This document shows, piece after piece, positions 29,660-32,438 of a DNA stretch of 64,000 bases. The position numbers were made by a program, and so were the translations under genes. Position 1 is the stretch's first letter, and every line of letters begins with the position of its first letter. This DNA is from Acetobacteraceae bacterium (GTDB taxonomy: Bacteria; Pseudomonadota; Alphaproteobacteria; Acetobacterales; Acetobacteraceae). The stretch is taken from the NCBI GenBank assembly GCA_027482245.1, contig JAIXWG010000038.1, positions 124,001-188,000 on the forward strand, given 5' to 3'. A model generated the notes under the pieces. That model saw only the letters and a program-made list of their open reading frames with translations. It was not told where the DNA came from and did no database searches.

Positions 29660-30735
29660 CGGCGGGGCGGCGGCTGCGCGTGCTGATCGTGGATGACAGC
29701 GCGGCGGTGCGCGCGGCCCTGACCCGGATCATCGAGGACGCGCCCGACCTGGAAGTCATGGCGACCGCCGGCGATCCCTTCATCGCCGCGCAGCGCATCG
29801 CGCAGGAACTGCCGGACGTCATCATCCTCGACATCGAGATGCCGCGGATGGACGGCATCACCTTCCTCCGCCGCCTCATGGCGCAGCGGCCGATCCCGGT
29901 GGTGATCTGCTCCTCGCTGGCCGAGGAGGGGTCGGAGACGCTGCTGCAGGCGCTGGAGGCCGGCGCGGTGGAGGTGGTCGCCAAGCCGCGCATGGGATCG
30001 GCGCAGTTCCTGGCGGAATCGGCCGTGCGGGTCTGCGATGCGCTGCGCGCCGCCGCCCATGCACGGCTCGGCCGTCGTATGGCGCCGCCACGCAGCGTGG
30101 AGCGCAAGCTGAGCGCGGATGCGATGATCCCCCCGCCGAGTGGCCGCGCCATGGCCCGTACCACGGAACGGATCGTCTGCATCGGCGCCTCCACCGGCGG
30201 GACGGAGGCCCTGGCCGAGGTGCTGACCGCCTTGCCCGTGGACAGCCCGGGCATCGTCATCGTGCAGCACATGCCCGAACGCTTCACCGCGGCCTTCGCG
30301 CGGCGCCTCGACGGGCTGTGCCGGATCGATGTGAAGGAGGCGGAGGATGGCGATGCGGTCCTGCCCGGTCGCGCCCTGATCGCGCCGGGCAACCGGCACA
30401 CGCTGCTGACGCGCAGCGGCGCCCGCTACTGCGTGGCGGTGAAGGACGGCCCGCTTGTGTCCCGCCACCGCCCGTCGGTGGACGTGCTGTTCCGCACCGC
30501 CGCGCAATATGCCGGGCGCAACGCGCTTGGCGTCATCATGACCGGGATGGGCGATGACGGGGCGCGCGGGCTGCTGGAGATGCGCCGCGCCGGCGCCGCG
30601 ACGCTGGCGCAGGACGAGGAGAGCTGCGTCGTGTTCGGCATGCCGAAGGAGGCGATCGCGCTGGGCGCGGCGGAGCGCATCCTGCCGCTGGACCGCATCC
30701 CGCAGGCCATCGTGGAGTTGCGCGCATGGACATGA
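29656..30735 (+). CDS. cheB: Protein-glutamate methylesterase CheB
   Basis: 359 residues: receiver domain 8-125 with acidic pair D13-D14 and phospho-acceptor D59 ([13 protein letters not shown]), linker, then methylesterase domain from about 170. The catalytic triad is visible as Ser in [11 protein letters not shown], His in IVQHMPERF and Asp in [10 protein letters not shown]. It removes receptor methyl groups and may deamidate glutamines when phosphorylated by CheA. It overlaps cheR by four bases and the next gene by ten. Confidence 0.95.
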
Positions 30736-32438
30736 TGGCGCCCGCCCTGCGGGAACTCCGCGACCGCCTGGCCCCCTGTTTCGCGCCGGTGGATTCCGAA
30801 TTCCTGGCCGCGGGGGCGCAGCTCGGCGATGCGATCGGCTGGCTTGCCGGCATCCGCGACGGGCTGGGGGACCTGAGCGCGGCGCTCGATCGGCCGGAGG
30901 TCTCGACGGCCGCCGCCACGCTGGATGCGGCCGCGGGCGAGATCGCCGCGCTCGCCACGCGGCTGGAGGCGGAGGCGGCGGCGATGGCCGCGCTGGAGGC
31001 GCCGCTGGAGCGCATCGGTGGCTGCCTCACCGCGCTGCTGGAGGTGAACCGGGGGCTTGCGCAGCTTTCCGTCAATTCCGCCATCGTCAGCAGCAGCATC
31101 GCCGATGAAGGCGGCGATACGCTCAACTTCGCCGTCGAGATCCGGTCGCTGCTCAAGGCCGCCGGGCAGGTGATGCACGGCTATGGGGAGGCGCAGGCGG
31201 CGGCGCGGCGCGAACTGGCCGGCGCGACCGCGGCGCATGCGGCCTTCCGGCGCCAGCAGGGGCCGCTGCTGCGCGACGTCGCGGCGCGGATCCGGCGCGG
31301 CATCGGCGAGGTCGCTTCGCGCCAGCAGGCGGTGCGCCGCGCCGCCGGCACGGTGCAGGAACGCGCGGACCGCGTGGCGTCGGCCACGGGCGTCACCGTC
31401 GCCGCGCTGCAGGTCGGCGACGCCACGCGGCAGCGCATCGAACACGTCGTGGACGGGCTGGATGCGCTGGCCGCGGGCCTGGATGGGGCGGAGCGCCCCT
31501 GGTCCGCCGGCCTCGCGCCCGATGATCGCCATGCGCTGGCGCGGCAGGGCATGGCCCTGCAGGCGGCGCTGCTGCAGGGCGCGGGGGCGGTCTTCGGGGC
31601 CGAGGTCGCGCGCATCTCGACGGCGCTGGGCCAGCTGGGCGGGGAGGCGCGCGGCATGGTGCAGGACGGCGCCGCGCTCTTCGGCCACGCCGGGGCCGCG
31701 CAGGCCGGGCGCACCTCCTTCCTCAGCGCGCTGGAGCGGGACCTGGAGACGGCCTCCGGCCTGCTGGCGGAGGCCGGGGCGCGGCGGCGGGAAGTGGACC
31801 TGGCCATGGCCGCGATCGAGGCCATGCTGGCCACGCTGCATGACGGGCTGGCCGCGGTCAGCGGCGCGGCGGTGGATCTGCGGCTCGTCGGGCTGAACGC
31901 CGCCTTCCGCTGCGCCCGCCTGGGCCCGCGCGGCGTGGCCCTGGCCGCGATCGCGCGCGAGTTGCGCGCGCAGGCCTGGCAGATGGCGGAAGGGGTGGAG
32001 GCGCTGTCCGGCGCGGTGAAGGAAGCCGTCGCGGCCGGGGCGGCAATCCGCGCCGCGGATGGCGCGGCCGATGCGCTGGTGGCGACGACTGGCGCCATGC
32101 AGGGCAGCCTGGCGACGCTGCGGGAAGCGGGCGGCGTGATGGACGCGGCGATCGGACGGCTCGGGGAGGATGGACGGCGCGCGGCGGATGCGCTCAGCGC
32201 CATGTCCGCCGGCATCGCGGCGGTCGCGCAGCTCACCGGGCTGCTGGACGGCGCCGCGGCCGAGCTGGGGCTGCGCGTGACGGGCGGCGTGGAGGCCGAA
32301 CCGGAGCTCCTCCAGGCTCGGCTCGGCCTGGTGCACGGCGTGCCCTTCACCATGGTGCAGGAACGCGAGATAGCGCGCCGCTTCGGCGCCGACATGCCGG
32401 AGCCCGAGGCCGTGGAAGCCGACGACCTGCTGTTCTGA
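30726..32438 (+). CDS. Che-operon coiled-coil protein with receptor-tip-like and CheZ-like motifs
   Basis: 570-residue Ala-rich helical cytoplasmic protein with no membrane segment; I do not recognise a named family. Two segments resemble degenerate chemoreceptor signalling tips: [16 protein letters not shown]...[12 protein letters not shown] (115-146) and [14 protein letters not shown]...[12 protein letters not shown] (387-417). Between them [14 protein letters not shown] (229-242) contains D232-x3-Q236, the spacing of the catalytic Asp143/Gln147 pair of CheZ. The tail ADDLLF (565-570) recalls the CheY-binding C-terminus of CheZ. It starts within cheB (ribosome site GGAG before 30726) and ends the operon. 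A CheY-binding or phosphatase role is inference. Confidence 0.8.

Follow-up and report, generated by a model that had tools for sequence, protein, structure and literature searches.

How is the phosphorylated CheY of a che operon switched off, and could the last gene of the operon studied here encode the protein that does so? Signal termination is not settled for many alphaproteobacterial and other che systems. Published work deals with chemotaxis in rhizobia, in Azospirillum and in Rhodospirillum centenum (PMC8429497, PMC2890560, PMC13390405), and for some of these systems phosphate sinks and CheT are described (PMC8429497, PMC12654446). The window that we analyzed, a 64,000-nucleotide stretch of a Roseomonas-like Acetobacteraceae genome, holds a che operon whose last gene, here called X, encodes a protein in which the best-conserved stretch resembles the CheZ catalytic motif, and X may therefore be an unrecognized off-switch of the pathway. 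In E. coli, Asp143 and Gln147 of CheZ are inserted into the CheY active site, Gln positioning a water molecule and Asp engaging CheY.

The operon and its last gene

The first-pass annotation had placed a 570-residue ORF (30726-32438, + strand) at the end of a che operon, and both the ORF list and the translation confirm this. The gene order is STAS-like gene-cheY-cheA-cheW-mcp-cheW-cheR-cheB-X, and X begins within the 3′ end of cheB, with a 10-base overlap. The genes, with the basis for each assignment, are:

23363..23674, + strand: small protein gene, presumably STAS-domain-like (named by eye), first gene of the operon (ORF)
23671..24033, + strand: cheY, free-standing receiver (ORF; next to cheA in orthologous operons)
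24030..25991, + strand: cheA (ORF; PF02895 match at window 24816-24989, contig 148816-148989)
25988..26440, + strand: cheW, first copy (within ORF 25619-26440)
26471..28312, + strand: ordinary methyl-accepting chemotaxis protein with canonical tip (ORF; tip sequence)
28327..28809, + strand: cheW, second copy (ORF; orthologous loci)
28778..29659, + strand: cheR (ORF; orthologous loci)
29656..30735, + strand: cheB (ORF; orthologous loci)
30726..32438, + strand: X, 570-aa receptor-like protein with CheZ-type motif (ORF; 33 full-length orthologues aligned; AlphaFold2)

The start of the first cheW is most plausibly 25988, judging from its ATGA overlap with cheA and a 150-aa orthologue in locus L029. 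Genes similar to the STAS-like gene adjoin cheY in several orthologous loci (phmmer), and such a gene at the operon head may indicate a non-flagellar output.

Among 34 X loci, cheB lies within 2.5 kb of X in 26, directly upstream and on the same strand in 23 of these and on the other strand in 3; STAS, cheY or cheA lies within the same distance in 7 more, and no che gene was found in the short flank of L118. Azospirillum sp. B510 has the same nine-gene order as the window operon, and on Agrobacterium leguminum plasmid p1 the gene adjoins a che cluster and is annotated 'chemotaxis protein'.

The X family is patchy in its distribution. Single-protein searches found relatives over most of the X length in 6/299 genomes of the order, source genome included, the closest named one seen being that of Roseomonas oleicola (full length; best tblastn segment 51% identical), and also a relative in Sphingomonas kyeonggiensis (27%). 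Profile searches of 385 class genomes added three intact copies and one frame-broken copy; in the draft genome G638 the gene is interrupted by in-frame stops (L035, L076, L089). Profile matches also came from 27 of the 82 genomes of the order to which G348 belongs, itself included (E 3e-30 or better, with the N-terminal half only), and from 6 of the 101 genomes of G655's order, again itself included. Plasmid tblastn returned 15 records, seven with at least 80% query coverage, and the matches include Azospirillum sp. B510, Shinella, Rhizobium, Methylosinus and Agrobacterium leguminum. Annotations on X matches read hypothetical protein, chemotaxis protein or 'type VII secretion target', and a partial Pseudomonas match is annotated as a methyl-accepting chemotaxis protein. 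The 'type VII secretion target' label, carried by the Shinella plasmid matches, is perhaps a coiled-coil misannotation. A scan of 289 genomes of the phylum gave eight full-length matches, all from the window's class, and a ninth outside it (L172) that covers 264-560 only and is of the short type described below.

Conservation of the motif and tail

The features of X to which we refer are:

31068..31163, + strand: first degenerate receptor tip, residues 115-146 (profile alignment to the short-family canonical tip; modelled loop 126-130)
31407..31448, + strand: CheZ-type motif, residues 228-241, with D232 and Q236 (best-conserved 14-residue window; CheZ hydrophobic register)
31884..31976, + strand: second degenerate receptor tip, residues 387-417 (1qu7 match; column 395)
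32346..32366, + strand: FTMVQER, residues 541-547, family consensus YTMxxER (T542, E546 and R547 invariant in 33/33)
32418..32435, + strand: C-terminal tail ADDLLF, residues 565-570, CheY-binding-like (translation, alignment; pLDDT <50)

We aligned 33 full-length orthologues of 19-52% identity, counting R. oleicola once (L004 = L029). The alignment left out a motif-less paralogue (L022), the frame-broken G638 copy (L035, L076, L089), the contig-edge copy L124 and seven further genomes of the G348 order without a locus. Fourteen residues are invariant (G30, L33, F135, Q229, D232, T234, Q236, R237, H240, L278, N391, T542, E546 and R547), and no other 14-residue window is as well conserved as 228-241. 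This is where the first-pass annotation had seen a D232-x3-Q236 site, and D232, T234, Q236 and R237 are kept in 33/33, which is beyond chance. The D-x-T-x-Q sequence is also present in 6/6 further X sequences outside the alignment and in the truncated L124. The predicted ADDLLF tail is likewise present at the C-terminus: position 570 is F in 23/33 and L in 10/33, and position 566 is D or E in 31/33. Conservation of both D-x-T-x-Q and the tail in orthologues, a check that the same annotation had named, thus holds across the alignment. These counts are to be read with the sampling in mind: the sample favors motif carriers because most search profiles, and thus the source of most orthologues, include the motif, related sequences are not independent, and L175, whose tail is identical to that of L125, is possibly the same gene. 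An orphan paralogue in G166 (L022/L081) has lost the T and Q of the motif and the tail, and no che gene was found within its 19 kb stretch. The YTMxxER element is also found in some members of the short family.

Relationship to chemoreceptors

Is X then a chemoreceptor? The first-pass annotation had described two tip-like segments, 115-146 and 387-417, and these are real: X 360-436 aligns with the receptor tip 1qu7 (phmmer against PDB, E 0.04), and the MCPsignal profile (PF00015) is matched at E≤1 by 27/33 orthologues (best 5.4e-10). They are degenerate, however, and the window protein itself has no MCPsignal or other Pfam match at E≤10. The conserved Glu of a canonical receptor tip (LNAA-x-E) is missing from the second tip of X, where column 395 holds K in 23, R in 9 and L in 1 of 33 sequences, and this substitution of K/R (32/33) argues against X serving as a normal array receptor. 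X shares tip-like segments with receptors of the MCPsignal type but differs from them in its two hairpin-like halves, the K/R at the tip Glu position, the CheZ-type motif and the tail.

The AlphaFold2 model of X, made from the 33 sequences, has a mean pLDDT of 87.7 and a pTM of 0.69. Its helices span 4-54, 57-125, 131-252, 265-319, 334-443 and 447-500 and are followed by shorter ones and a low-confidence end. D232 and Q236 lie one turn apart within the confident long helix 131-252, so the D-x-T-x-Q sequence, conserved in 33/33, is placed on a helix as in CheZ. By DSSP, helix 334-443 runs unbroken through the second tip-like segment, so a second hairpin turn is not evident from the secondary structure. 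Residues 350-450 of the model nevertheless superpose on the receptor tip region of 6s1k at 2.0 Å; receptors can be superposed on the second half of the model, although the scores of unrelated helical bundles are higher. Receptors take the first two places among the Foldseek matches, below significance, and no CheZ entry is among the structure matches listed, which carries no weight for exclusion.

A short sister family and the resemblance to CheZ

A profile built from the N-terminal half of X retrieves shorter proteins (350 to 540 residues), each with a single receptor tip of canonical type, a QFQDxxxQ site and a tail of the general form ...(D/E)LF, such as DDIELF. In 21 aligned members Q271, Q273, D274, Q278 and the tail F are invariant (L090 has a short extension after the tail), as are the N, E, G and F of the tip; MCPsignal is matched by 19/19, and some members have an apparent N-terminal hydrophobic stretch (by eye). 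Left out of the alignment were two loci with both motif and tail (L104, L107) and six with neither (L106, L110-L114). The profiles of the short family and X align over 191 columns with D and Q in register (E 2.5e-15). The two share the D/Q motif, the kind of tail and the gene neighbors, whereas the short family has one hairpin with a canonical tip and QFQD before the site. Of the 20 loci L090-L109, 17 have a match to cheB, cheY or cheA in their short flank; of the other three, L103 has cheR only, and L093 and L106 have none, L106 also being without the motif. Motif and tail co-occur in this family: among 25 loci (L090-L114), found with a tail-free N-terminal profile, a (D/E)(L/M)F end is present in 18/19 with the motif versus 0/6 without it, tails being counted by eye and relatedness uncorrected.

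How close is either family to CheZ? The consensus around the Asp is SALQVGDITRQRLEHV in X, TGMQFQDRTKQRLEHV in the short family and EACSFQDITGQRITKV in CheZ of the same order. The T position of the motif is T or S in X (33/33) and CheZ (13/13) and in 9/21 of the short family; R at +5 is found in X (33/33) and CheZ (13/13), and H or K at +8 in 33/33 and 12/13, respectively. Hydrophobicity around the motif correlates between X and CheZ at r 0.72 in register, compared with ≤0.34 at shifts of 1 to 5. The short-family profile recovered 15/15 CheZ from 3556 ORFs (E 7e-6 to 6e-3), its median of 20.4 bits on the 15 CheZ falling to 2.0 when they were reversed and to -0.1 when 16 motif residues were masked, while the best of 300 shuffles reached 11.7 bits. 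Because reversal, shuffling or masking abolishes the signal, the resemblance is local to the motif, and it possibly reflects either local homology or convergence.

Profile comparisons of CheZ with X gave less. By hhalign the probability was 46.7% for the short family and 12.5% (E 0.0023) for X. In hmmsearch the X profile scored a median of 6.1 and a best of 17.2 bits on CheZ, against 4.0 and 10.8 on reversed CheZ. The CheZ profile gave a median of 7.1 and a best of 16.4 on the short family and 2.3 and 11.4 on the 33 X sequences, which is not above the 1.1 and 10.8 of 60 ordinary receptors picked without QDxxxQ(R/H/K); one receptor fragment scored E 0.0059, amid short-family hits. With hhalign and hmmsearch scores this low, X by itself has no significant profile similarity to CheZ, and what links the two is the motif and its hydrophobic register and, by profile, the short family as intermediate.

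X is not a member of the CheZ family by PF04344 or NF041271: PF04344, which the first-pass annotation had proposed to search, was unmatched at E≤10, and NF041271 gave 12.7 bits with a cut-off of 350 (2/33 orthologues match it at E≤1). A CheC/CheX identity is likewise unsupported, there being no match to PF04509 or PF13690 (Pfam, E≤10).

PMC7750401 gives AXXFQ and DXXXQ as CheZ motifs and the C-terminal region as the CheY-binding part. X resembles CheZ in its acidic C-terminal tail with a hydrophobic end and in the sequence D-x-T-x-Q-R-(I/L)-x-(H/K)-V, for which the hydrophobic register of the two agrees. It differs in length (570 aa versus 171-224 for the CheZ seen here), in having two receptor-like halves in one chain where CheZ, of about 200 aa, has one hairpin and dimerizes into a four-helix bundle, and in having Q at -3 of the Asp and none at -1 whereas in CheZ FQ directly precedes it.

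Other phosphatases of the source genome

The assumption of the first-pass annotation that classical CheZ is generally absent from this lineage is wrong, because the source genome has three classical cheZ genes, on C41, C49 and C64 (L082, L084, L083), away from the window operon, and 50/150 genomes of the order have a CheZ over the Pfam cut-off. Two of the three genes overlap a cheY.

There are six CheA matches in the source genome. Four che loci have CheY and a receiver-less CheA, and each holds X, a short-family gene or CheC/CheX: the first C49 locus and C62 have short-family genes adjoining cheY, and C46 has a CheC/CheX-type gene, the one such gene noted, behind a weak CheY match. Each of these loci thus has a candidate phosphatase of its own. 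At C18 and the second C49 locus, in which CheA is fused to a receiver, X, the short family and CheC/CheX were not found in the stretches read; C18 also has a separate receiver ORF. CheC and CheX act as CheY-P phosphatases in other che systems. The short receptor-like proteins at two che loci of this genome, L140:8539-9618 (-) and L141:8648-9946 (+), have FQDxxxQ and an IELF tail, and one of them has an apparent N-terminal membrane segment (by eye).

CheT of Sinorhizobium meliloti, as described in the review PMC12654446, is likewise alphaproteobacterial and a CheZ-like CheY phosphatase with DXXXQ; a complex with CheR is described for it, and by that description X is set apart.

Proposed function and its alternatives

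We consider that X is probably a soluble, receptor-derived phosphatase of CheZ type for CheY-P, built from two fused degenerate receptor hairpins. Its substrate is presumably the cheY product (23671..24033) of the same operon. In this scheme phosphorylated CheY would be caught by the flexible acidic tail, and D232 and Q236 would reach from helix 131-252 into the CheY active site, Q236 positioning water and D232 engaging CheY after the manner of Gln147 and Asp143 of CheZ; the two receptor-like halves of one chain perhaps mimic a receptor or CheZ dimer. The three cheZ genes elsewhere in the genome, and the separate receiver ORF at C18 in a locus where no phosphatase family was found, count against this reading. 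CheY binding, catalysis, substrate choice and the pairing of hairpins within one chain are what we infer. The idea of a CheY phosphatase or adaptor, put forward by the first-pass annotation, is upheld as regards the receptor-like coiled coil, the CheZ-type site, the tail, their conservation and the setting among che genes, and finds no support as regards PF04344 membership and the absence of CheZ from the lineage.

Could X instead bind CheY-P through its tail and leave it phosphorylated, as a sink, localizer or adaptor on a receptor-like scaffold? The conserved acidic/hydrophobic tail and the receptor-like segments would suit such a role, and the cheZ genes elsewhere in the genome could provide the phosphatase; however, it is the CheZ-type site and not the tail that is the most conserved stretch, and the orphan paralogue lost both alike, which makes a non-catalytic binder unlikely. 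A structural, receptor-derived protein in which D-x-T-x-Q is a packing layer, taken from or parallel to the D-x-V-T-Q-Q-N of receptors, strikes us as a somewhat poorer explanation again. Ordinary receptors of the same operons do carry that sequence in 8/9 checked, including the receptor at window 26471-28312 and those in L029, L030, L073 and L078-L080, so D-x3-Q is common in ordinary receptors and by itself weak evidence, and the CheZ profile fails to separate X from receptors. Yet the receptor Asp lies 93 residues past the tip Asn, whereas the motif Asp lies 115 past it in both X (N117) and the short protein of L140 (N159), and the short-family profile ends before its motif in receptor alignments; the R at +5 and H/K at +8 common to X and CheZ, and the conserved C-terminal tail, also speak against mere packing.

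The remaining alternative concerns the substrate: X might dephosphorylate another receiver of the operon, foremost CheB-P, and would therefore tune adaptation and not output. The close linkage of cheB to X in 26/34 loci and their overlapping reading frames in the window fit this, but 7/34 loci adjoin STAS, cheY or cheA instead, short-family members often adjoin cheY and cheA, and the C-terminal region of CheZ binds CheY according to PMC7750401, so that we regard a CheB-P phosphatase as very improbable. A CheY-P phosphatase is the reading that we retain. Neither X nor the short family is described in the passages of open-licence papers that the searches covered. X is a real and conserved candidate phosphatase.

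A wider class of receptor-derived phosphatases?

At E≤1e-45 the short family is matched in 54 of the 289 phylum genomes, of which 49 lie outside the window's class. All 12 phylum loci read, seven from beyond the class, have D-x3-Q and an (E/D)LF tail; L153 and L157 repeat genes counted earlier. It is tempting to speculate, and we do so tentatively, the idea being possible rather than probable, that an unnamed, widespread proteobacterial class of CheY-P phosphatases arose from chemoreceptors, its short members acting as array receptor-phosphatases and X being a tandem form without array contacts, and that CheZ and receptor helices may have a local origin in common. If such a class is real, che systems thought to be phosphatase-free would hide one among their receptor-like proteins. 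Should X and the short family prove to be phosphatases, a function would follow for genes at present annotated as 'hypothetical' or 'chemotaxis protein', and any che operon could be checked for a phosphatase of its own beside cheB or cheY. Outside the class, L158-L164 and L172 have FQDxxxQ or close variants and an acidic tail ending in F, and several of them lie beside cheA, cheB or cheY matches.
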